Origin: Actinomycetota bacterium
GTDB lineage: Bacteria > Actinomycetota > Thermoleophilia > Solirubrobacterales > Solirubrobacteraceae
Assembly (NCBI GenBank): GCA_018268595.1
Contig: JAFDWH010000014.1
Span: forward strand, 1-64,000
Direction: 5' to 3'
Length of the DNA stretch: 64,000 nucleotides
Below are positions 37,275-50,478 of this stretch, one piece after another (the stretch's first letter is position 1; the number at the start of each line of letters is the position of its first letter). Position numbers and translations under genes: made by a program. The notes beneath the pieces were generated by a model, which saw only the letters and a program-made list of their open reading frames with translations, searched no databases and was not told the DNA's origin.

Positions 37275-37720
37275 GACGCGCTCCGGCGGTGCTGGGTCAG
37301 CGCGATCTCGTCGAGCACCGCGCCCTCGACGCGCGCGACGGCGCGCTCGTGGTCGGCGCGACGGCGCTCCTTCAGCCGCTCGAGCGCCTGGCGCTGCCGA
37401 GCGGCCTCGCGAAGCGCGTCACGTCGCGCGCCGACCTCGGCGTCGTGGCGGTCCAGGTCGAGCTGGCCGGCTTCGCGCGCCTGCTCCATCCGCTCCAGGT
37501 AGGCCTGTGCGGCGAGCAGGTCGGCGGCGCTGGAGCTGCCGCCCGCAGCCGCCGCGCGCTGCGCGGCGAACGCCCCGGCGACCTCCTCGCCCATCGCGCA
37601 CAGCCGCTCGGCGCAGCGCGCCTGGCGATGCAGCGCCCCGGCGAGCTCCTGCTTGGCGAGATCCTCGCCACGCTCACGCAGCGCCCGCAGGCGCTCCAGG
37701 GGAAAGCGGAACGACGTCAC
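37271..37720 (-). CDS. fliJ: Flagellar export chaperone-escort FliJ
   Basis: 149 residues, almost entirely coiled coil, with the family start [23 protein letters not shown] and many Arg/Glu/Ala heptads. It works with the FliI ATPase ring and FlhA. First gene of the long operon that runs to cheY. The GTG start is set by the family N-terminus; a sigma-28-type -10 box ends only 8 nt upstream and there is no ribosome binding site, so the mRNA is probably leaderless. It is separated from fliI by about 8 kb of unrelated genes. Confidence 0.85.
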
Positions 37721-37728
37721 GGCCCGGG

Positions 37729-37756
37729 TAGTCGGCCCGACGAGCGCGAACTGGAG
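37729..37756 (-). promoter_or_regulatory. Sigma-28-type promoter of the fliJ-cheY operon
   Basis: Minus strand CTCCA-N15-GCCGACTA, then CCCGGGCC and the GTG start at 37720. The -35 is weaker than in the other copies; the -10 and following CCCGGG are identical to those of fliO. Confidence 0.65.
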
Positions 37757-37810
37757 AGGATGGACGCCTGTTCGATGCCGAACGAGGTACGCGCGCTCAG
37801 TCCGCCGTCG

Positions 37811-37838
37811 TTGCGGTCGCGACGACCGCCGTTATAGT
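37811..37838 (+). promoter_or_regulatory. Candidate housekeeping promoter of the membrane protein gene
   Basis: TTGCGG (37811-37816), 16-nt spacer, TATAGT (37833-37838), about 40 nt before the start. TATAGTCC is also found directly before mntA (53492). Confidence 0.4.
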
Positions 37839-37880
37839 CCTCTTTTCGGGGCAACGGAGAGGTTCGGGGGAGCCACCGTG

Positions 37881-39923
37881 ATGCACGCAGTGTCCGCACC
37901 GGAGCAGGGCGTCCGGCGACGTGCTGCCGCACTGGGCGCGGCTGACGCGGCGTGGCTGGCGGTCGTGCCGACGGTCGCGATCATGCTTGCCGCGATCGTC
38001 CTGCTCGGGCCGTGGGTCGGAACGCTGCGACCGACCGGGAATGCGCGCTTCCTCTCCGGCGTCCAAGCCGGGGTCCACCCCGAGCCGACTGAGCAGGGGC
38101 GCTACCTCGTCGCGCTGCTCGCTCCGCTGCTGCTGGCCGCGCTGACGCTGCTGCTCGTGCGTCGGCCCCCCTCGTGGGCGGCGGAGCGTAGCCGGCGGCT
38201 CGCGCGAGCCGCCGAAGCGCTCGCCGTCGCGGTGCTCGCCGGCTGCTTCGTCGCGCAGCGGCTTCAGCTGCCGCAGGGCGGCCCCACGGAGCGCCGCATC
38301 GTCTACTTCACGATGCCGTCAGTGCTGTTCGCCGTCGCGGTCGCAGCCGCGCTCGCGGTGGCCGCCCGCTCGACGACCGTGCGCGAAGCATGGGCCGCTT
38401 GGAGCGCCCCTTCACGAAGCCGCCTGGTGCTCGCATTCCTTCTCGCGCTCGGCGCGACCGCGGTGACGTTGCTGCCGGCGATCAGCGCCGACGGCTCACT
38501 CGCACATGAGTACGAAGCGGTCATCTACCACATGCAGTTCACATACGACGAGTCGGTCTCGGTGCTCGCCGGCCGCTCACCGCTCGGCGACTTCGCAACC
38601 CAGTACGCCGCCCTGTGGCCCTACGCGATCGCTGCGGTGATGTCGCTGCTGGGAACGTCCGTTGCGGTCTTCACGGGCGTGCTCGCAACGATCACTGGCC
38701 TCGCACTGCTCGCGCTCTACGACGTGCTGCGGCGCGTTGCGCGCAGCCCGCTGACGGCGCTGCTGCTGTATGTACCGCTGCTGGCGACGTCCGCGCTGAA
38801 GCTGCACGGACCGTGGCACGGGCGCTTCTCGCTCGTCACGTACTACGGCGTCATGCCGCTGCGCTACGCAGGACCGTTCTTCCTCGCGTGGCTGCTCGTG
38901 CGCCACCTCGACGGCGTGCGCGGCCGGCGCGACCCGCACATCTGGCCGCTGTTTCTGGTGGGCGGCATGGTCGCGCTCAACAACACCGACTTTGGAATCG
39001 CCGCCGTCGGCGCGACGATTGCCGCGCTGCTGTGGACGTCGCGTCGTCCCAACGGCCCGCGCGCCCGCCGGCTCGCGCTCGAAGCGGCCGGCGGCATGGC
39101 CACGGCGTTCGCGCTCGTGACGCTCCTGTTGGTGTGGCGGACCGGCGGACCGCCACACTTCGAGCTGCTGCTGCGCTACGCGCGCATCTTCGTCGTCGAA
39201 GGCTTCGCGAACCTGCCGATGAAGCCGGTGATCGGCTTCCACCTCGTCGTCTACCTGACGTACGTCGCGGCGATCGGCGTCGCCACCGTGCGCGCGATCC
39301 GGCGTGACCCGGACCGGCTCATGACCGGCATGCTCGTGTGGAGCGGCGTGTTCGGCCTCGGCGCCGGCTCCTACTACGTCGGGCACTCGCTGTCCGAGGT
39401 ATTAATGTACACGTTTCCGGTGTGGGCGCTGACGGTCGTGCTGCTCACGCTGCTGAGCATGCGCGCCCTCGCGGCAAGCACCCGCCGCTGGCCGGCGCCG
39501 GCGATGCTCGCCTGCCTGTTCGCCTTCGGCCTGCTGGTCTGCTCGCTCGCGCAGACCCCGTCCCCGTGGGACGAAGTGAGGCGGATCGGAAGCGAGGGGC
39601 CAAAGGTGTTCGCCCGCCCGATCGGCGAGGCGTTCGTCGCGCAATACGCGCAGCCGGGCGAAGCCGTCCTGGTGATGAGCGGGCTCGGGCAAAAGATCGC
39701 GCTCAACCTCGGCCTCGACGACGTCGAACGCTTCACCGGCGCACGCTCGATGTTCACGCTCGAACAACTGGAAGAGTCGGTCGCCGCGCTGAGAGCGGCG
39801 CGCGGGACGAAGATCTTCGTGCTTACGATCGAAGCGTTCGGCGGCTTGACCGAGGCGCTCGAACGCGCCTACGAGCTGCGCGCGCAGGAACCGCAGGGCA
39901 TGACGTATTGGGTGCAGCGGTGA
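37881..39923 (+). CDS. Large polytopic membrane protein, GT-C-like, unknown
   Basis: 680 residues with about 13 hydrophobic segments and a C-terminal soluble region of about 120 residues (GEAVLVMSGLGQKIALNLGLDDVERFTG..., then KIFVLTIEAFGGLTEALERAYELR). The layout resembles bacterial GT-C membrane glycosyltransferases, but no DXD/EXD motif could be placed with confidence. GGGGGAG precedes a GTG (37878) and ATG (37881) in tandem. Codon use includes more A-ending codons than the neighbours, and TATTAATG occurs at about 39402, hinting at a different origin. It is inserted between fliJ and bioA. Function unknown; a surface-glycan role is a guess. Confidence 0.6.
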   Translation: MHAVSAPEQGVRRRAAALGAADAAWLAVVPTVAIMLAAIVLLGPWVGTLRPTGNARFLSGVQAGVHPEPTEQGRYLVALLAPLLLAALTLLLVRRPPSWAAERSRRLARAAEALAVAVLAGCFVAQRLQLPQGGPTERRIVYFTMPSVLFAVAVAAALAVAARSTTVREAWAAWSAPSRSRLVLAFLLALGATAVTLLPAISADGSLAHEYEAVIYHMQFTYDESVSVLAGRSPLGDFATQYAALWPYAIAAVMSLLGTSVAVFTGVLATITGLALLALYDVLRRVARSPLTALLLYVPLLATSALKLHGPWHGRFSLVTYYGVMPLRYAGPFFLAWLLVRHLDGVRGRRDPHIWPLFLVGGMVALNNTDFGIAAVGATIAALLWTSRRPNGPRARRLALEAAGGMATAFALVTLLLVWRTGGPPHFELLLRYARIFVVEGFANLPMKPVIGFHLVVYLTYVAAIGVATVRAIRRDPDRLMTGMLVWSGVFGLGAGSYYVGHSLSEVLMYTFPVWALTVVLLTLLSMRALAASTRRWPAPAMLACLFAFGLLVCSLAQTPSPWDEVRRIGSEGPKVFARPIGEAFVAQYAQPGEAVLVMSGLGQKIALNLGLDDVERFTGARSMFTLEQLEESVAALRAARGTKIFVLTIEAFGGLTEALERAYELRAQEPQGMTYWVQR

Positions 39924-39930
39924 GGTGCGC

Positions 39931-41229
39931 TCACGCCGCCTTGGCCGCCGCGCACATCGCCGCGGCGACGGCCGCGAGGTCCTCGTCGCCGATCGCGTAC
40001 GGCGGCATCGCGTAGACGAGGTCGCGGAACGGGCGCAGCCAGACGCCGTGCTCGACGGCGGCCGCGGTTGCGGCGGCGACGTCGACGGGGCGGTCGAGCT
40101 GCACGACCCCGATCGCCCCCTGCACGCGCACGTCGGCAACGCCCGGCTGCGCTGCCGCCGGCGCCAGCCCGGCGCGCAGGCCGGCCTCGACCCGCGCGAC
40201 GTCGGCGCGCCAGTCGCGCTCCTCCAGCAGCCCGAGCGAGGCGAGCGCGACCGCGCAGGCGAGCGGATTCGCCATGAACGTCGGACCGTGCATCAGCACG
40301 CCCGCCTCGCCAGCGCCGATCCCGCGCGCGACCCACGCGCTGCAGAGCGTCGCCGCGAGCGTCATGTAGCCGCCGGTCAGCGCCTTGCCGACGCACATCA
40401 CGTCCGGCGCGACGCCCGCGTGCGCGGCCGCGAACAGCTCCCCGCCCGTGCGGCCGAAGCCGGTCGCGATCTCGTCGAGGATCAGCAGCACGTCGTGCGC
40501 GTCGCACAGCTCGCGCAGCCGTCGCACGTACGCGGGCGCGTAGACGTGCATGCCGCCGGCGCCCTGCACGACCGGCTCGGCGATCGCGGCCGCCAGCTCG
40601 CCGGCGTGCGCCTCGAACAGCGCCGTCGTCTCCACGTCCCATGCCGGGTCGACCTCCGCCGCGCCGAAGCCGGCCGGCGGGCACGGCGCGAACAGCTGCC
40701 GCGGCAGCGTGCCCGTCCACAGCTCGTGCATCCCGCCGACCGGGTCGCAGGCGGACATCGCGCCGAACGTGTCGCCGTGATAGCCGCCGCGCAGCGCGAG
40801 CAGCCGCTGCCGTTCGGGCCGCCCGCGCGCACGTTGGAACTGCAGCGCCATCTTGATCGCGACCTCGACGGAGACCGATCCGGAGTCGGCGAAGAAGACG
40901 TGCTCGAGCCCGTCCGGCGTCAGCTCCACCAGCCGCCGCGCCAGCTCGACCGCCGGCGCGTGCGTGAGCCCGCCGAACATCACGTGCGCCATGCGGTCCA
41001 GCTGGTCGCGCACGGCCGCGTCGAGCGCCGGCACGCGGTAGCCGTGGATCGCGCACCACCACGACGCCATCCCGTCGATCAGCTCGCGCCCGTCGGCGAG
41101 CCGCAGGCGCACGCCGGCCGCCGACTCGACGGGGAGCGGCGGCAGCGCGGCGGGCAGCGGCGCGTACGGGTGCCATACGTGCTCGCGGTCGTACGCGAGC
41201 AGCGCGTCCGTCGAGCCGAGTGCGCTCAC
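39931..41229 (-). CDS. bioA: Adenosylmethionine-8-amino-7-oxononanoate aminotransferase
   Basis: 432 residues, class III aminotransferase that makes 7,8-diaminopelargonate in biotin synthesis. Motifs: [37 protein letters not shown] (BioA-type substrate pocket), [57 protein letters not shown], and the PLP lysine in [21 protein letters not shown] start overlapping the stop of the upstream kinase-like gene (GTGA). No other biotin genes are visible. Ends 7 nt from the convergent membrane protein gene. Confidence 0.94.
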
Positions 41230-41864
41230 TCGTCGCGCGGCGGTGGGCGGAAGACGATCTTCTTGACCTCGGCGACGGTCCCGCCGCTGAGCCGCAGCGC
41301 CGTCTGGATGCCCTCGTCGCCCAGCTCGCCGGCGACGAGCGCCCTGCGCAGCTCGTCGAGCTGGGCGCGCGCCTCCTCGTCGGCGTCGTCGCGGCCCGCC
41401 TCCAGCAGGATCAGGTGGCGCGGGCGGCGCGCCGCGTGCGCCATCCGCACGTACGGCTCGCGCGCGTCGGCGGCGAGCCCGTCGACGCCCAGCGCCACCG
41501 TCTCGCCGCTCTCCAGCCGTCTGCCGATCGCGGTGTCGAGCAGCTCGCGCGCCCGCTCCTCCAGCTGCGCGGCCGACACGCGGCCGGCCAGGAGCGCACG
41601 CACCTTGTCGAGCGACAGGTAGGCGTTTCTGTCCTCGAGCACGCGCGCGGCGAAGCGGTCTCGCTCCGCGGCGCTCGGGGAGACGATCAACAGCAGGCTG
41701 CCGGGGGAGTAGCGCAGCCGGTCGGACGGCGTGAGGATGCGGCAGCGCGTGGAGACGTCGACCGGGCGTCTGACGGCGCCTTCGCGGCGCGGCCGGTCGG
41801 ACGACCACGCGCCCCGCTCGTCGTCGGAGAACTTGACGCTGCGGGTGGAGGGATTGGTCGACAT
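41226..41864 (-). CDS. Polynucleotide-kinase-like (AAA_33) protein with degenerate P-loop
   Basis: 212 residues. Residues about 55-160 follow the small PNK/AAA_33 kinase layout (GSLLLIV..., [56 protein letters not shown]). The Walker A site reads SPSAAERD (62-69) instead of GPSGSGKS, so the catalytic lysine is missing. It is probably inactive as a kinase and may be a regulator or adaptor. ATGGAGGG directly precedes the ATG. Translation is coupled to bioA. A GCCGATCA element (41879-41886) upstream resembles a flagellar -10, but its -35 is poor. Confidence 0.65.
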
Positions 41865-41878
41865 CCCTCCATCTTGCC

Positions 41879-41906
41879 TGATCGGCTACGCAGAGTGTCC
41901 ACGGAT
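41879..41906 (-). promoter_or_regulatory. Weak sigma-28-like element upstream of the kinase-like gene
   Basis: Minus strand ATCCG-N15-GCCGATCA. The -10 fits the flagellar set; the -35 does not (expected CTCAA) and no CCCGGG follows. Kept as a candidate only. Confidence 0.25.
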
Positions 41907-41977
41907 AAGTACGAGAGAGCGCTTCGGACTCATCAAAGGGTCCCGAGAACTGTGACGGCAACCGCCGCATCAGCCAG

Positions 41978-41983
41978 TACGGT
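41978..41983 (+). promoter_or_regulatory. TANNNT -10 hexamer of the restriction-modification operon
   Basis: TACGGT followed by TCGCCG and ATG at 41990: the same hexamer-N6-start layout, and even the same 6-nt spacer, as the dedA promoter. It suggests leaderless expression adapted to the host. Confidence 0.4.
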
Positions 41984-41989
41984 TCGCCG

Positions 41990-44137
41990 ATGCCCAGCTT
42001 CTCGGACGCTATCCAGGCTTACGACGAGAGTCACCGCGGCCTGGAGCACCTCCCTCGCTCACTCGTCCCTGTCCACGGCGAGTACAAAGAGAACGTGCGG
42101 CTGCTCAGCGCTCGGCGCAGACCGCTGGAGGAGTACTACCGGTGGCAGTTCATCTACGGGCTGATCAACGCCGGTCTGTGTCCGCGCGACCACCTCGGTG
42201 CCGAGGTCCATTTCCCGAAGGGCAATGCCAACGCAGCTGCGCTGCAGATCGATGCGGCAATCTTCGACGATCCTTCGTGGATCGATCGCTACCGCGCCTT
42301 TTGGCAGAACCGCAGGAACGAGGACCTCCAATGGCTCAACGATCATTTGCTCGCAGTTATCGAGTTCAAACGTGGCGAAAAGCGGATCGCCGACGCGTTC
42401 CAGCGCCAGGTGAAGCCCGCAATGCGGGAGAAAGATCCGAGCGACGCCTACGTCGTCGGCATTTATTACGACGAAGGGCGCCTGTATCTGTTTGACCGCC
42501 GCAACGGGCGCTATTTGCGTCTCGACGACAGCAAGAACCAGAAGGGCGAGCAGAGCGCTGCCGGAGACCTGTCGCTTCATCTTCCGGACCCGTACCTACA
42601 TCTCCCCTCGCTGGATGATCTCCGGAACCGCGTGAACCGACCATCGCTGGTCGACCGCGCGACGCGCTCGATCACGGACCTCGACGTGATCACCTCGATC
42701 GACACGATGCAGGTGCGCGACGCGCTGTCGGCGGTGCTGCGCACGATGGACCGCGTCGGACTCGTGAATCAGCGCGGTTATGAGATCCTCGTCCAGACGT
42801 TCGCGCTGAAGATCTCCGACGAGAAGCGTAACCAAGGGCGTCCCCAGGAACCGCTGCGCTTCTTTATCACTGACGAGGAGGCCAACTTCTCAACGCTGCG
42901 CGAGCGGGGCATCCAGTCGTTCATCGGTCGCATGCAGCAGATTCGCGACCAGGCCCTTGCAGAGTATCCCCGCATCTTGGAAACGCTGGTGATCGACTGG
43001 AAAGAGTCGGACCACGTGCGTGTGTTGGCGAGCGCATGCGAGCGGTTCCAGGACTTCTCCTTCATCCGCTCATCCAAGAGCGACCTCTACCAGCTTGTCT
43101 TTTACAACTTCGCCAGCCGGTTCCAGCTCCAGGAGCAGGCGCAGTTCCTGACGCCTATCGCAGTGATTGACTTCCTCGTGCGGATCGTCAACCCGCGAGG
43201 AGACGAAAAGGTGATTGATCCCTGCTGTGGCATCGCCGACTTCCTCTCGCTCTCCTACGTGCATGCGCAGGAGAAGCCACCGGCGTGGCAACTCGATGAC
43301 GCGAACATCGTCGGTCTCGATGTCTCACGCGACATGATCACGCTGGCTTCCCTGAACATGCTGCTGAACGGAGACGGCAACGCTCGCCTGTTTCGCGTGC
43401 CGGACAAGGGCTCAATTCTTCACAAGGTGAAAGCGGGGTCACCGCCGGAGACTGTTGCGCTGGATCTCGGGCGGCACACGGGCGGCAACTGGGACGACTG
43501 GCCAGACCACACCCGGCTGTTGAAGTTTGACGTCGTGCTCACCAACCCGCCGTTCGGCGAGGACCGCGCGTACCGGCCGGAGAGTGACTTCGACCAACAG
43601 GTGATCGAGCTGTACGAGACGTGGGGCCTCGTGGGCGGCGACAGCATCGACCTGGGCGTCGTGTTTCTGGAGAACGCGGTTCGGATGCTCGCCGACGAGG
43701 GACGGCTGGGAATCGTGCTGTCGAATTCGATCGCTTCGACGGACCGCTGGGCGTCCGTGCGCGAATGGCTGTTGAGCAAGGTCCGGCTGACCGCGGTGTT
43801 CGACCTGCCCGCGAACGTGTTCGCCGAGACAGGCGTCAACACGACGCTGCTCGTTGCCTACAAGCCGAAGCCTGCCGACCTCTCGCGGCTGCGGCGTGAC
43901 GGTTACGCGGTCTTCGCGCGCGACATCAAGAACGTCGGCTACATGCGACGCACGAGCAAGCGCAATATCTTCTTCCAACCAAGATACGTGCTCGACCCCA
44001 GAACGTTCGATGTCGCGCTCGACGCCGAGGGCGCGCTGATCCTGGACGAGGAGTTCACCGAGACGGTGGACGACTTTCGCACGTGGACGCGCTCACAGGA
44101 GGGCGCCCTCGCACGGATCTTCGTCGAGGAGCCCTAG
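41990..44137 (+). CDS. Fused restriction endonuclease-N6-adenine methyltransferase (BcgI-like A subunit)
   Basis: 715 residues. N-terminal HsdR_N/PD-(D/E)xK nuclease (about 40-185) with catalytic Asp88 ([11 protein letters not shown]) and Glu125-x-Lys127 ([12 protein letters not shown]). A helical linker follows. The type I-like N6-adenine methylase (about 360-690) has AdoMet motif [12 protein letters not shown] (408-419) and catalytic NPPF (519-522). With the separate specificity protein downstream (0 nt gap) this matches type IIB/BcgI-type systems, in which one fused subunit cuts and methylates. Codons with A/T third bases are more frequent than in flagellar genes, which suggests transfer. 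Complete and probably functional. Confidence 0.82.
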
Positions 44138-45673
44138 ATGCAGGCGGTCACCGAGCTGCAGTTGGCGCAGATCCAGGCGAATGGCTACTCGTTCTCGCCG
44201 GCGCACTACACCGACGTCGCGATCACAAGTCCCACGACCACGACGGTGCGCGGATTGCTCGACCCCACGACGCCCTACGAGCGCGGCTTCGAACCCGGCT
44301 CGAGCGCGTATTTGCCGCATTCTTCGCACCACATGATCCGCACGAAGGCGCTACAGCGCCACAGCTGGCTGGTCGACCCGCGCGGCGACGCGATCGTCCC
44401 AATCAGCCCGCGCGCATTCGTCGACGGCAACCTCGCGATCAACGACATCCTGCTGAGCAAGGACTCGAACGTCGGTGAGGTCGCGCTCGTCGATGAGCCA
44501 CGCTCGATCCAGCACATGCGCAGCGGAGGCGTGCTCAAGCTCCGGCCAGCATCGGACTCCTTCTACCTGTTCGCGTTCCTGAAGCACCCGAGCTTCGTCG
44601 CCCAACTCGAGGCGGTCACCCCACGCGGCTCGACGATCCGCCACGCAGGCGAGCGCTGGCTGGACTGTGTGATCCCGTTGCCGAATCAGCGGGATTCTGG
44701 CGACGTGGTCGCGTATGTCTCGGCGATGACGGAGGCGATCGCCGACAAGGAGCGACTGATCCGGGAACGCACGCGCGAGATCCACCGCACGATCGGCGAT
44801 GAGCTTAGGCGCGGTCGTCGCTGGCGCAGCAGACCGCACACGATGCCGTCAATCCACGAGATTGCGGCGCGGGGGCGCTTTGACGCCGCGATCTACGACC
44901 GCGAGTACAAGGGCATCATCGATCTTGTCGACGCCTACGAGCATGGTGCGCGAACGCCCGATGAAGCCGGCTTCGATGTGAATCCTGGCCCCACGCTGGA
45001 GCTGAAGGTGATCAAGACGCGGATCGACTCAGACGAGCCGCGGCCTGGCTACTACGCGCTGCTGCTGCCAAAGAATCTGTCGGAGTACGGCACGATCAAC
45101 CGCCTCCAATACCTCGGCACTGCGGCTCAACTCCCACTGCTGCAAGATGGGGATGTGCTGTTCGGGGAGGCCGGATTCCACAAGGGTCGGTCCGTCGTGC
45201 TCGTGCAGGCCCCCGCACACTGCACGACGAACGCGCACGGAATCTACGCGCGTCACCGCGAACGGGACTTGGACGCGGCGATCATGTTCCGCTGCATCTT
45301 CGACTGGTATCGCGAGATGGGCGTCGTCGATTTGGTAGCAGTCGGCGGATCGGGCGGTCACCTCTCGCCGTCGTATTTCGACGAGTACATCCGCGTTCCG
45401 AACTTCTCGCGCGAGATCCGCGAGCGTATCGTCCCGCTTTACCACACGGGCGACCGTGTCGGGAGGGCGTTGCCGCTGGCCCCGGGCGAACTGGCCAGAC
45501 GGCACCGCGAGCGCAACGCGCAACTGGGCATTTGGGAGCTGAGCGCCGACCGGGCTCTGCTGATCCGGATTCTGCGCGAACTCCAGGCCGCGATCGTGCG
45601 TGGAGAGCCTGTTGACCTCGCAGGATTCGCAGACGTCGACGACCTTTCGCGCTCGCCCGAGTCAATCTTCTAG
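44138..45673 (+). CDS. Specificity subunit of the BcgI-like restriction-modification system
   Basis: 511 residues with HsdS-like two-half organisation. A first target-recognition region spans about 1-185 (HMRSGGVLKLRPASDSFYLFAFLKHPSF... resembles TRD ends). A coiled-coil spacer lies at about 188-222 (YVSAMTEAIADKERLIRERTREIHRTI). A second TRD-like half follows (about 230-450) and then a C-terminal conserved helix (LIRILRELQAAIVRGEPVDL). It determines the DNA sequence recognised by the fused nuclease-methylase encoded immediately upstream. The recognition sequence cannot be predicted. It ends 16 nt from the convergent fliI gene. Confidence 0.78.
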   Translation: MQAVTELQLAQIQANGYSFSPAHYTDVAITSPTTTTVRGLLDPTTPYERGFEPGSSAYLPHSSHHMIRTKALQRHSWLVDPRGDAIVPISPRAFVDGNLAINDILLSKDSNVGEVALVDEPRSIQHMRSGGVLKLRPASDSFYLFAFLKHPSFVAQLEAVTPRGSTIRHAGERWLDCVIPLPNQRDSGDVVAYVSAMTEAIADKERLIRERTREIHRTIGDELRRGRRWRSRPHTMPSIHEIAARGRFDAAIYDREYKGIIDLVDAYEHGARTPDEAGFDVNPGPTLELKVIKTRIDSDEPRPGYYALLLPKNLSEYGTINRLQYLGTAAQLPLLQDGDVLFGEAGFHKGRSVVLVQAPAHCTTNAHGIYARHRERDLDAAIMFRCIFDWYREMGVVDLVAVGGSGGHLSPSYFDEYIRVPNFSREIRERIVPLYHTGDRVGRALPLAPGELARRHRERNAQLGIWELSADRALLIRILRELQAAIVRGEPVDLAGFADVDDLSRSPESIF

Positions 45674-45689
45674 CGGCGCGCCACCGTCC

Positions 45690-47192
45690 TCACACCCGCA
45701 GGTTCAGCGGCGGGAGCGCGGTGGCAGCGACCGGCGTGACGAGGCCCTCCGGCGCAGCGCCGGGCGGGACGAACGCCGGCGCGGCGGCGGCGACCGGCTC
45801 GGCGTCGACCGGCTCGCCGAAGCCGCCATGCTCCGCGACCGCGGCGGCGATGTCGAGCAGGGCGCGGTCGGCGTCGGCGGCGCTCGTGCGCTCGTCGACC
45901 GCTTGGCGCAGGAAGCGCTCGACCGCCGGGCGCAGCGCGATCGCCGCGTCCACCAGCGGATCGGTCCCGCGCTGGTAGGCGCCGATCGCGATCAGGTCCT
46001 CCTTCTCGCGGTACGCCGCCAGCAGCTGGCGGACCGCCTGGCCGGCGGCGCGCACCTCCGGCGAGACGACCTCGCCGACCAGGCGCGAGACGCTCTGCAG
46101 CACGTCCACCGCCGGGTAGTGCGAGGCGTGCGCCAGCGCGCGCGTCAGCACGACGTGGCCGTCGAGGATCGAGCGCACGGCGTCGGCGATCGGCTCGTTC
46201 ATGTCGTCGCCGTCGACCAGCACCGTGTAGAGCGCGGTGATCGAGCCGACCGCGGCGGTCCCGGACCGCTCCAGCAGGCGCGGGAGCTGCGCGAACACGC
46301 TCGGCGTGTAGCCGCGCGTCGCCGGCGGCTCGCCGATCGCGAGGCCGACCTCGCGCTGCGCCATCGCGAAGCGCGTGACCGAGTCCATCATCAGCATCAC
46401 GTCGTGGCCCTGGTCGCGGAAGTGCTCAGCGATCGCGGTCGCCGTGAACGCCGCCTTGATGCGCACGAGCGCCGGCTGGTCGGAGGTCGCGACGACCACG
46501 ACCGAGCGCTCGAGCGCGTCGCCGAGGTCGCGCTCGACGAACTCGCGCACCTCGCGCCCGCGCTCGCCGACCAATGCGATCACGTTCACATCCGCGGTCG
46601 TCGAGCGGGCGATCATGCCGAGCAGCGAGGACTTGCCGACGCCCGAGCCGGCGAAGATGCCGAGGCGCTGCCCGCGCCCGCACGGCACCAGGGCATCCAA
46701 AGCGCGAACGCCCAGGTCGACCCGCTCCTCGATCCGCGGGCGGGACAAAGCGTCCGGCGGCGCGGCGGCGGTCGAGCGCGGCCGCCCGCCGTCGGCGCGC
46801 GGCATGCCGTCGAGCGGTCGGCCGAGCCCGTCGATCACGCGTCCGAGCAGGTCGTCGCCGACGCGGATCCGGAACGGCGAGCCGGTCGCGCGGGCGGTCG
46901 TGCCCGGCCCGATCCCCTCCATCTCGCCGAGCGGCATCAAGAGCGTGCGCTGGCCGCGGAAGCCGACGACCTCGGCGGGCACCGGGGCGTGCCCGCGGTC
47001 GCCGTTGACGAGGCACACCTCGCCGACCTCCGCCTGCAGCCCGGTCGCCTCGATCACCAGGCCGATCAGGTCGGACACCCGCCCCGACCGGCGCGCCAGA
47101 TCCGAGCCGCGCAAGAGCGCGGCCGCCCGCGCAAAGCGAGGAGCGCGGATCTGCCCGTCTGTCAGACAGGCGGACTCGCGGTCCTCCGTCAT
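45690..47192 (-). CDS. fliI: Flagellar export ATPase FliI
   Basis: 500 residues. Walker A GIFAGSGVGKSSLLGMIARS, Walker B VMLMMDSVTRFAMAQREVGLAIGEPPATRGYTPSVFAQLPRLLERSG, and a C-terminal export-specific region. It drives dissociation of chaperone-substrate complexes at the export gate. The C-terminus is extended by about 40 Pro/Ala-rich residues. Last gene of the flgB operon; the ATG overlaps the fliH stop (ATGA). The expected next gene, fliJ, lies about 8 kb away beyond inserted genes. Confidence 0.96.
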   Translation of the reverse strand: MTEDRESACLTDGQIRAPRFARAAALLRGSDLARRSGRVSDLIGLVIEATGLQAEVGEVCLVNGDRGHAPVPAEVVGFRGQRTLLMPLGEMEGIGPGTTARATGSPFRIRVGDDLLGRVIDGLGRPLDGMPRADGGRPRSTAAAPPDALSRPRIEERVDLGVRALDALVPCGRGQRLGIFAGSGVGKSSLLGMIARSTTADVNVIALVGERGREVREFVERDLGDALERSVVVVATSDQPALVRIKAAFTATAIAEHFRDQGHDVMLMMDSVTRFAMAQREVGLAIGEPPATRGYTPSVFAQLPRLLERSGTAAVGSITALYTVLVDGDDMNEPIADAVRSILDGHVVLTRALAHASHYPAVDVLQSVSRLVGEVVSPEVRAAGQAVRQLLAAYREKEDLIAIGAYQRGTDPLVDAAIALRPAVERFLRQAVDERTSAADADRALLDIAAAVAEHGGFGEPVDAEPVAAAAPAFVPPGAAPEGLVTPVAATALPPLNLRV

Positions 47193-47800
47193 CCGCCCAG
47201 CTCCGCCGCCACCAGCTCGCGGGCGCGCGCGAGCTGGGTCTCGATCGAGGCGTCGACCTGGCCCTCGTCGGTGCGCACGACGGCGCCCCCGCGCGACAGG
47301 CGCCGCTCGGCCTGCACCTCGCAGTGCTCGATCCCGCCCAGCTCGCCCGCGAAGCCGCCAGCGGCGGCGCGCACCAGCTCGAGGTCGTCGGGGTGGACCA
47401 GCACCGTCACGCGCCGGCGCTCGCCGAGCCGCCGCAGCGCGCCGCGCACGACGTCGAGCACGCGCTCGGGCTCAACCGCCAACGCCCCGGCGACGACCTT
47501 CTCCGCCAGCGACACCGCGAGCGACACCGCGTCGCGCTCGACCGCATCGGCGGTCGCGTCGCGCAACGCGTCGAGCTCCAGGCGGGCCGCCTCCAGCGCG
47601 GCCAGCGCGGACGCGACCTGCGCGCGCCCCTCCTCCAAACCCGCCGACAGCCCGTCGGCGTGGCCCTCCGCGCGCGCCTGGGCGCGGATCGCGGCGGCCT
47701 CCGCCTGCGCCGCCGCCAGCGGCGACTCCAAGTCGCGCAGCGTCACGGCGGGCGCCGGCTCGAGCGGCTCGAACGCGTAGGGCTCCGGATCGGCGGCCAT
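47189..47800 (-). CDS. fliH: Flagellar export regulator FliH
   Basis: 203 residues. N-terminal Ala/Glu-rich coiled coil (ARAEGHADGLSAGLEEGRAQVASALAALEAARLELDALRDA) and a C-terminal globular domain (SLAEKVVAGALAVEPERVLDVVRGALRRL, VHPDDLELVRAA, and GGAVVRTDEGQVDASIETQLARAREL, a V-ATPase E-like ending). It binds and inhibits FliI. Overlaps fliG and fliI. Confidence 0.9.
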   Translation of the reverse strand: MAADPEPYAFEPLEPAPAVTLRDLESPLAAAQAEAAAIRAQARAEGHADGLSAGLEEGRAQVASALAALEAARLELDALRDATADAVERDAVSLAVSLAEKVVAGALAVEPERVLDVVRGALRRLGERRRVTVLVHPDDLELVRAAAGGFAGELGGIEHCEVQAERRLSRGGAVVRTDEGQVDASIETQLARARELVAAELGG

Positions 47801-48876
47801 CAGACGACCGCGTCCCCGGCGCCGCGCCCGATCACGAGCGTGCCGGCGTCCTCCAGGCGGCGCACGACGCCGACGATGCGGCCCTGCGCCTCCTCCACCA
47901 CGCGCTTCTTCTGCGGCGGCTGGAACTCCATCTCCTCGCGCAGCATCTGCGCGCCGCGCTCGGACATGTTCGACAACAGCCGCTCCTTGACGGTCTCCTC
48001 GACGCCACGCAGCGCGAGCGCGAGGTCTCTCTGGTCGACCTCGCGCAGCACGAGCTGGATCGAGCGGTCGTCGAGTCTCGCGATGTCCTCGAAGACGAAC
48101 AGCAGCCGCCGCACCTCGTCGCCCAGCTCGGCGTCCTGCTCGGCGATCGTGTCGAGCACGTTGCGCTCGGTCGGGCGGTCGGTGTGGTTGAGGATCTCGG
48201 CGAGCGACTTGACGCCGCCGGCCGCCTGGAAGTCCTGCTGGACGACCGTCTCCAGCTTGCGCCGCATCACGTTCTCGATCTCGCGCACGACGTCAGGCGG
48301 CGTCTCGCCCATGCGCGCGATCCGCAGCGCGATGTCGGCCTGCTGCTCCTCCGGCAGGCACGACAGCACCTGCGCCGCGAGGGTCGTGTGCAGGTTCGCG
48401 ACGACCAGCGCGATCGTCTGCGGCGACTCGGAGCGCAGGAACGTGACGATGTGGTCCGCCGGCGTGCGGCGCAGGAACTCGAACGGGCGGCGCTCGATCA
48501 CCGTCGCGAGGCGGCCGATGATCTCCGCCGCGCGGTCCGAGCCCAACGACCGCTCCAGCACCTCGCGCGCGTAGTCGACGCCGCCGGTCGCGAGCGAGTC
48601 GTACGCCTGCACGACCGCGGCCAGCTCCTCGAACACGTAGGCGGAGGTGTCGGGCGAGATCTGGCCCGACTTCGCCATCTCCAGCGAGAGCGTCTCGATC
48701 TCGTCGTCGCGCAGGTGCCGGAAGACCTCGGCCGCCTTCTCCGGCCCGAGCGCGATCAGCAGCACCGCCGCCTTCTGGCGGCCGGCGAGGCGCGGAACGA
48801 CTCTGGCGGGGAGCCGCGGGAGCGCGTCGCGCTCGGCCAGCTCCTCGACGGCGTCGGCGATGTCAACGGCAGGCAT
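47800..48876 (-). CDS. fliG: Flagellar motor switch protein FliG
   Basis: 358 residues. N-terminal FliF-binding domain (GRQKAAVLLIALGPEKAAEVFRHLRDDEIETLSLEMAKSG), middle EHPQR-like region (ESPQTIALVVANLHTTLAAQVLSCLPEEQQADIALRIARM), and C-terminal torque domain with charged residues (LLFVFEDIARLDDRSIQLVLREVDQRDLALALRG). The start ATG at 48876 is chosen because CGGGAG lies 8 nt upstream; a TTG 42 nt earlier is less likely. Overlaps fliH by one base. Confidence 0.95.
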   Translation of the reverse strand: MPAVDIADAVEELAERDALPRLPARVVPRLAGRQKAAVLLIALGPEKAAEVFRHLRDDEIETLSLEMAKSGQISPDTSAYVFEELAAVVQAYDSLATGGVDYAREVLERSLGSDRAAEIIGRLATVIERRPFEFLRRTPADHIVTFLRSESPQTIALVVANLHTTLAAQVLSCLPEEQQADIALRIARMGETPPDVVREIENVMRRKLETVVQQDFQAAGGVKSLAEILNHTDRPTERNVLDTIAEQDAELGDEVRRLLFVFEDIARLDDRSIQLVLREVDQRDLALALRGVEETVKERLLSNMSERGAQMLREEMEFQPPQKKRVVEEAQGRIVGVVRRLEDAGTLVIGRGAGDAVV

Positions 48877-48939
48877 CCGCGACTCCCGGAATCGGCTTTC
48901 GCTCTCCCGCGCCCGCAAGCGGGTCGCGTCCGAGCGACG

Positions 48940-50478
48940 TCACCCTTCGTCCTCCGCCATCCACGCGCGCACCTGCTGCGCGACGCGGTCGGGGTCGCGC
49001 TCGACGAGGTCCTCGACCTGCAGCCGGGCGGGCTGCTCGGGCGTGCGCAGCGGGCGCACCTGCGTCGGGTGGTCGTCGGCCTCCAGCCGCTCCAGCTCGG
49101 CGAGCGTGCGCGGCGCCTGGATCTCGGACAGCCACGTCGGCGTGCCGGCGAGCGTCTCGGACTCGCGCCGCTTCAGCTGGCGCGTCACGAACAGCAGGAA
49201 GCCGAGCGTCGCGAGGCCGACGAAGACGTACTTGAGATAGCCGCCGTAGGTCGCGACCGGCGAGGGCGCCGCCGCGGTCGGCAGTCTCGCGAACGCGACC
49301 TGGCCGACCGTCAGCACGTCGCCGCGTCTCGCGACGATGCCCGCCGCGCTCGCGACCGCCGCTCTGATCTGCGGGATCGCCGACGCCGGCACCGATCTGT
49401 CGAGCAGCACGGAGACCTGCTGGGCGTTGATCGCGCCGGGCGCGATTCTCGTGCGCGTGACGGTCTTGTCGACGCCGAACACGTCGTTGGAGCTGTCGCG
49501 TCTGTAGTCGGATCTGCCGCCCGCGCCGGTCTGCGCGTACGCGGGCGCGTTGCCGCCCACGCCGGCGGTGCCGCCGGCGCCCGCGCCGCCGCCTCTGAGC
49601 GTCTCTCTCTCGGTCTGCGCCTGCAGCGCGACGCCTCTTCTGCCGTAGGTGAGCTGCTCCTGCGTCGCCTCGTTGGCGTCGAGGTCGGCGTGCACCTGCA
49701 CCTGCGCCTTGTCGGGCCCGAGCGTGCGCGCCAGCATCGCGTTCAGCGAGGAGGCCATCGCGGCGTCGTAGCGCGCCTCGGCCGCCTGCTTCGCGAGCAG
49801 GCCGCCGTCGCCGCCGGAGGCCCCGTCGCCGCTGCCGGTCGGCCACAGCATCTCGCCGGTCCCGTCGGTGATCGTGACCTTGTCGGTCTGCAGGCCGGGG
49901 ACGCTGTTGGCGACCAGCTGCGCGATGCCGCGGACGGCGCCCGGGTCGAGCGTGCCCCCGCTCGACAGCAGCACGGCGGCGGTCGCCGGCGAGCTGTTGT
50001 CGGAGAACAGCTGCGCCTCTCTGTCGGGCAGCACGAGCTGCACCTGCGCGCCGTTGACGCCGTCGACCTGCTCGACCGTCTTGGCGATCTCGCCCTCGAG
50101 CGCGCGCTGGTAGTTGATGTTCTGCTGGAAGTTCGAGGTGCCGAGCTTCTGTCTGTCGAGCAGCTCGTAGCCGGGCTGCGCGGTCGCGCCGCTCAGCCCC
50201 GCGCTCGCGAGCGCGATCCGCGCGTCGGCCGTCTTGCCCTTCTCGACGGCGAGCGCGGTGCCGTTGTTCTGCAGCTCGTAGCCGATGCCCTTCGTGTCGA
50301 GCGCGGCAGTGACCTTGCCCGTCTGCGCCGGGTCGAGGCCCGTCATCAGCGTCGTGTACGAGGGCGCCGACGCCATTCTCATCAGCAGGATCAGCACGAC
50401 GACCGTGCCGAGCGCGACGGCGCCGAGCACGATGCGGCCGCGCGGCGTGACGTTGGCGAGGAGGGCGCGAAGGGGCAT
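48940..50478 (-). CDS. fliF: Flagellar MS-ring protein FliF
   Basis: 512 residues with an N-terminal membrane helix (about 16-36), YscJ-like ring-building motifs (LQNNGTALAVEKGKTADARIALASAGL, RALEGEIAKTVEQVDGVNGAQVQLVLP), a Gly-rich loop (about 300-325), a second membrane helix (about 405-425), and an acidic FliG-binding C-terminus (DPDRVAQQVRAWMAEDEG). Base of the rotor and housing for the export gate. Confidence 0.95.
   Translation of the reverse strand: MPLRALLANVTPRGRIVLGAVALGTVVVLILLMRMASAPSYTTLMTGLDPAQTGKVTAALDTKGIGYELQNNGTALAVEKGKTADARIALASAGLSGATAQPGYELLDRQKLGTSNFQQNINYQRALEGEIAKTVEQVDGVNGAQVQLVLPDREAQLFSDNSSPATAAVLLSSGGTLDPGAVRGIAQLVANSVPGLQTDKVTITDGTGEMLWPTGSGDGASGGDGGLLAKQAAEARYDAAMASSLNAMLARTLGPDKAQVQVHADLDANEATQEQLTYGRRGVALQAQTERETLRGGGAGAGGTAGVGGNAPAYAQTGAGGRSDYRRDSSNDVFGVDKTVTRTRIAPGAINAQQVSVLLDRSVPASAIPQIRAAVASAAGIVARRGDVLTVGQVAFARLPTAAAPSPVATYGGYLKYVFVGLATLGFLLFVTRQLKRRESETLAGTPTWLSEIQAPRTLAELERLEADDHPTQVRPLRTPEQPARLQVEDLVERDPDRVAQQVRAWMAEDEG

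Follow-up and report, generated by a model that had tools for sequence, protein, structure and literature searches.

A putative type IIB-like restriction-modification gene pair, related to BsaXI and BcgI, between fliI and fliJ in a Solirubrobacteraceae genome

Two adjacent genes lying between fliI and fliJ raise the question of which kind of restriction-modification system they encode, and how it came to sit within a flagellar locus. A sequence-only reading of the 64,000-nucleotide stretch analysed here (the window) had proposed a two-subunit, type IIB-like system, in which one chain (RM) carries a PD-(D/E)xK nuclease and an N6-adenine methylase, and a separate HsdS-like protein (S) provides specificity. 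Judging from sequence and predicted structure, the pair very probably works like a type IIB enzyme of the RM + S plan (BsaXI/BcgI-like), as a stand-alone, two-subunit system. Characterised type IIB enzymes are few: in the available text of PMC11997821, 28 are counted as identified in REBASE, 16 of them with a sequence.

The gene pair and the nuclease domain of RM

The fused nuclease and methylase were found at the coordinates listed in Table 1, with D88, E125, K127, DPCCG and NPPF all present. The HsdS-like gene was indeed found to follow RM without a gap, as the RM stop codon TAG (44135-44137) directly abuts the ATG start codon of S (44138). Because the stop and the start abut, the translation of S is probably coupled to that of RM. 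Both reading frames are intact, with no frameshift and no stop. The lower GC content that had been noticed was also evident: the values were 0.62 for RM and 0.65 for S, whereas the eight measured neighbours had 0.70-0.79 and the window as a whole 0.73. Third-position GC was 0.82 for RM and S versus 0.88-0.97 in those eight genes.

Table 1. Genes, predicted domains and motifs of the RM-S pair and its surroundings (positions in the window)
Feature	Position	Strand	Basis
RM gene, 715-aa fused nuclease-methylase	41990-44137	+	ORF; full-length profile match to BsaXI
N-terminal PD-(D/E)xK nuclease domain, HsdR_N-like (about residues 1-215)	41990-42634	+	model secondary structure; conserved residues
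Nuclease catalytic residues D88 (42251-42253), E125 (42362-42364), K127 (42368-42370)	42251-42370	+	aligned with BsaXI D90, E105, K107
Helical connector (about residues 216-360)	42635-43069	+	model helices 236-255, 261-280, 306-322, 340-353
Gamma-type N6-adenine methylase domain (about residues 361-650)	43070-43939	+	Pfam N6_Mtase; fold matches to type I M subunits
Methylase motifs DPCCG (from D410), NPPF (from N519)	43217-43231, 43544-43555	+	
C-terminal helical tail (residues 689-712)	44054-44125	+	model helices 689-703, 705-712
S gene, 511-aa specificity subunit	44138-45673	+	ORF; PADLOC Specificity_I E 5.7e-06; abuts RM
S first half, TRD1-CR1 (residues 1-234)	44138-44839	+	hhalign vs second half
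S second half, TRD2-CR2 (residues 235-511)	44840-45670	+	hhalign vs first half
Insert of ~7.9 kb between fliJ and fliI, RM-S at its fliI end	37742-45689	.	fliI/fliJ spacing in related loci
fliI, fliH, fliG, fliF	45690-50478	-	
fliJ	37277-37741	-	
bioA	39931-41172		
212-aa kinase-like gene beside bioA	41226-41864	-	weak resemblance to bacterial Pnkp in its kinase part (E 3.8e-05, well under the cut-off)

Pfam recognised the C-terminal half of RM (N6_Mtase, E 5.5e-27; Eco57I, E 3.5e-11). In the nuclease domain no Pfam family scored above its cut-off, HSDR_N being sub-threshold (E 0.063), so other evidence was needed for the N-terminal 215 residues. When viral contigs were scanned with an alignment of nine sequences, 80 loci were retained, 35 of which had a profile match starting in the N-terminal domain. 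Thirty-two of these were taken into a 34-row RM alignment; the near-copies L070 and L093 (of L069 and L092, respectively) and the 1049-aa L090 were left out. E47, D88 and K127 were kept in all 34 rows, the E125 position held 32 E and two D, and Q140 and E72 were kept in 32 and 28 rows, respectively. In the methylase, D410 and N519-F522 (NPPF) were present in 34 of 34. The motif names used for the nuclease and the methylase are the customary ones. E47, D88, E125, K127 and Q140 were all kept in the relative from a Gemmatimonadota metagenome-assembled genome (MAG) and in that of the viral locus L006.

The structural statements are based on a second AlphaFold model, built from 34 sequences (pLDDT 78.5, pTM 0.67); the first model, built from two sequences (pLDDT 30.1), was discarded. 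In the second model, the nuclease domain comprised a helix (47-60), strands 69-75, 85-92 and 120-127, a helix (133-146) and a strand (156-161). The order at the N-terminus, i.e., helix, strand, strand, a helical insert, strand, helix and strand, is that of PD-(D/E)xK nucleases, for which this strand order is typical. D88 was located on the second strand, and E125 and K127 on the third. An intact gene pair could in principle encode a methylation-only remnant with an inactive nuclease; according to the available part of PMC6158711, HsdM engineered to carry the nuclease domain of an HsdR methylated and did not restrict. The nuclease residues, however, were kept across 34 diverged rows and the genes carry neither frameshift nor stop, which makes such a remnant very improbable.

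Comparison of RM with BsaXI, BcgI and type I subunits

With an E of 2.8e-104, the profile of the 34 nuclease-fused RM rows matched BsaXI across 1-604 of its 641 positions. Type I M subunits ranked next among the solved chains; their matches began at about position 180 or later and lacked the nuclease part. D88, E125 and K127 fell on BsaXI D90, E105 and K107, as counted along the printed profile alignment, and E72 came within two residues of BsaXI E73, in an uncertain register. In the available text of PMC11997821, alanine at BsaXI E73, D90, E105 or K107 is described as abolishing cleavage. In the Foldseek search against the PDB, the three best matches of the model were the three BsaXI entries (8w0p, 8w2p and 8w2q; E 6.8e-20 to 7.3e-19), with modest TM-scores of 0.40-0.42 by query length. 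In VIA-align, the top Z score (27.5) belonged to a methylase-only protein, 2f8l, and BsaXI came next (25.9, 25.3 and 25.1). The VIA-align superposition on BsaXI covered model residues 6-710 with a large rmsd of 8.8-19.5 A; the domains are therefore placed differently or poorly predicted. Among the VIA-align rows shown, the nuclease part was covered only by BsaXI and the type IIG enzyme DrdV. Type I M subunits aligned from about residue 230 or later, and the type IIG enzymes DrdV and BpuSI aligned along much of the model in both Foldseek and VIA-align.

BsaXI and the window RM thus have the same nuclease-connector-methylase order in one chain, a separate S and the equivalents of D90, E105 and K107 in common. 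This comparison covers the RM chain. BsaXI RM is longer (916 aa versus 715), the D88-E125 spacing in the window RM exceeds that of BsaXI D90-E105 by ~22 residues, and the shorter chain leaves no room for the BsaXI paddle. As far as the available text of PMC11997821 goes, cutting by BsaXI also depends on the paddle residues D816 and E823, the paddle belongs to BsaXI alone among the identified type IIB enzymes, and the RM + S plan occurs in eight of the 16 modelled ones. The same text provides an analogy by which the C-terminal tail of the window RM is a possible S-docking helix.

The pair had previously been called BcgI-like. This holds for the two-subunit plan: BcgI, the type IIB archetype, is described in the available part of PMC3874165 as having cleavage and methylation in one chain and a separate S with two target-recognition domains (TRDs). 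The closest relative found among solved structures is BsaXI, however, and the comparison with BcgI is one of published descriptions. In the portion of PMC11997821 available, the nuclease part of BcgI is said to fail to superpose with the remaining type IIB models in its group. We regard the pair as an intact, fairly ordinary member of the BsaXI/BcgI group.

The methylase fold and the S-like subunit are also common to type I M + S systems (EcoKI, StySJI and PacII), and RM could accordingly act as an M subunit, with a distant HsdR doing the cutting. Type I M subunits lack a nuclease domain, however, unlike the window RM with its own intact nuclease site. The earlier proposal had named an hsdR gene elsewhere in the genome as the finding that would speak for a type I system. 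Both HSDR_N (PF04313) and SWI2_SNF2 (PF18766) were absent from the window genome (98.9% complete, 31 contigs), whereas nine and ten of 14 control genomes, respectively, were positive. It is unlikely that an hsdR gene was missed in the assembly, and we consider a type I system extremely unlikely.

The specificity subunit and the type IIB-like reading

Recognition of S by known families was weak and was limited to the PADLOC profile given in Table 1; Pfam yielded nothing above cut-off for this protein. S had no match among plasmids, and no relatives of it were found in viral contigs with a two-sequence alignment. A gene of at least 250 aa lay closely downstream of RM in 26 of the 32 viral loci. 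Twenty-four of these genes were judged to encode S, nine by profiles and the rest by reading, while two (L097 and L124) were dropped as not S. No next gene was found in the remaining six loci, two of which lie at contig ends. Ten of the 25 further S proteins in the family were compared with specificity-subunit profiles, and each gave a match. When the alignment of the 26 S proteins was split, the two halves proved homologous (hhalign probability 99.85%, E 1.5e-30); the same test with three proteins was not significant (probability 0.2%). Two homologous halves are what would be expected for a bipartite target. The 23 complete S proteins of the viral loci, with starts placed at the leftmost codon, ranged from 324 to 527 aa. 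S had been noted as much longer than BcgI S (341 aa, the figure of the sequence-only reading), but 511 aa is ordinary for the family, since 22 of these 23 relatives measure 451-527 aa.

The type IIB-like reading is supported because the domain plan, the motifs, the BsaXI match, the two-half S and the absence of the two HsdR families searched for all fit. The nuclease and the gamma-type adenine methylase are joined in one chain, with the nuclease N-terminal. The PD-(D/E)xK site is intact and matches that of a proven member, BsaXI. S is separate and has two TRD-CR halves, and no separate translocating R subunit was found. The points that weigh against this reading are the modest TM-scores, the missing room for a paddle, the long branch of the clade (see below), a nuclease that Pfam does not recognise and the MADS protein MAD2 as the nearest NCBIfam family. 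An enzyme with the same parts might also be type IIG-like, cutting on one side only or with another geometry. Cutting geometry is not fixed by domain content alone, and the alignments with DrdV and BpuSI would suit such an enzyme. The one-sided type IIG enzymes described in the available part of PMC3874165, on the other hand, carry the specificity part in the same chain, and a separate S with two target-recognition halves is the plan of two-sided cutters. A type IIG-like mode of action is therefore improbable, though less so than a type I system.

As a type IIB-like enzyme, the pair would use one S, with its two target-recognition domains, to read a bipartite site and to hold two RM subunits, which suggests an (RM)2S complex. 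When the adenines of the site are unmethylated on both strands, the N-terminal nuclease domains would cut on both sides at fixed distances. At a site with one methylated strand, these RM subunits would methylate the other strand, presumably to m6A. No ATP-driven translocase would be used. The system may serve against phages. A new two-sided cutter could also be of use in tag-based genotyping.

Acquisition of the pair and its relation to phages and MADS

The insertion in the flagellar locus proved real and is located between fliI and fliJ; the insert, however, is larger than the two genes, as it also contains bioA, the 212-aa kinase-like gene and a membrane protein gene. In the congeners L017, L019 and L020, and in L021 from a different genus, the gap from fliI to the following fliJ is about 0.5 kb at most. 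The two genes are ~2.8 kb apart, with other genes in the gap, in a fourth same-genus genome (L018); with 7.9 kb here, insertion at this junction seems to have recurred in the genus. The insert showed no flanking repeat of the att type, and neither a tRNA nor a sigma-70-type promoter was detected for it. RM was absent from all six same-genus genomes, of which one has a completeness of only 77%. Two of the 54 further relatives had a match of just 27-28% identity, in the methylase part. At 1e-30, the search of 396 genomes of the phylum returned an RM match in the window's own genome only. The pair looks like an isolated acquisition, because it is absent from congeners, rare in the phylum and low in GC. 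It was probably acquired horizontally and settled between fliI and fliJ. The 7.9 kb may have arrived in more than one step; the other genes of the insert have native GC.

The nearest relatives came from further afield. The Gemmatimonadota MAG contained an RM with 63% identity, split over two contigs, and an S with 52% identity on the second of these. Downstream of that S, a 417-aa gene without a Pfam match (L003:95-1348, minus strand) was observed, which has no counterpart beside the window pair. On the viral contig of L006, a relative with 45% identity to RM lies beside head protease, decoration and major head genes. A 10 kb stretch (L057) of a 38 kb viral contig encodes a terminase large subunit (PHROG E 1.5e-09) and, downstream of the terminase gene, a complete RM (47% identical) and S (501 aa, 35%) at L057:3998-7668; this pair is a candidate phage-borne type IIB-like system. 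In the methylase tree, the window protein, L002, L057 and L058 (same contig as L006) formed a single, fully supported clade whose branch is long (2.45). RM followed by S is the order common to the Gemmatimonadota MAG, a viral contig and about 24 of the 32 viral loci, S having been identified partly by reading. Together with its relatives, the pair forms an additional, separate clade whose nuclease site is intact. Two of its copies are on viral contigs that also carry phage head or packaging genes, and the order of nuclease-methylase and then S recurs in viral contigs.

The nearest NCBIfam models were MAD2 for RM (114.8 bits, cut-off 720) and MAD5 for S (19.7 bits, cut-off 400), and the window pair missed both cut-offs. 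MAD2 and MAD5 (NF047738 and NF047740) are co-linear with the window pair, comprising an N-terminal nuclease-like domain, a methylase and a separate S. Two proteins (L028 and L029) scored above the MAD2 cut-off among the 396 genomes of the phylum, and one of their genes is accompanied by a downstream MAD5 gene (575.6 bits). Both have V at the E125 place, no E at the E47 place and no Q at the Q140 place, a degenerate nuclease site in two of two, in contrast to the window RM, which keeps E125, and to most other relatives, which keep the nuclease site. The window pair might be taken for a stripped-down MADS relative (MAD2 + MAD5) working through other, unlinked parts, as these are the best families of its two proteins and MAD2 falls inside the nuclease-fused family in the methylase tree (99/93 support). 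The scores so far below cut-off, the E kept in RM where both MAD2 proteins have V, and neighbours that are fliI and the kinase-like gene, not MADS genes, leave this as little probable as a type I system.

In a sample of two MAD2 proteins, the degenerate site and the position in the tree point to recruitment of an RM + S pair of this kind by MADS, with loss of its nuclease. Tentatively, and with no great confidence, the pair could be placed in a clade carried by phages, within a broad RM + S family of the BsaXI type in which the MAD2/MAD5 core arose by loss of the nuclease site. If so, the window enzyme would represent an earlier state, still able to cut by itself, of a component that now serves MADS for marking only. 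The family also provides a connection of type IIB enzymes with MADS that can be tested.
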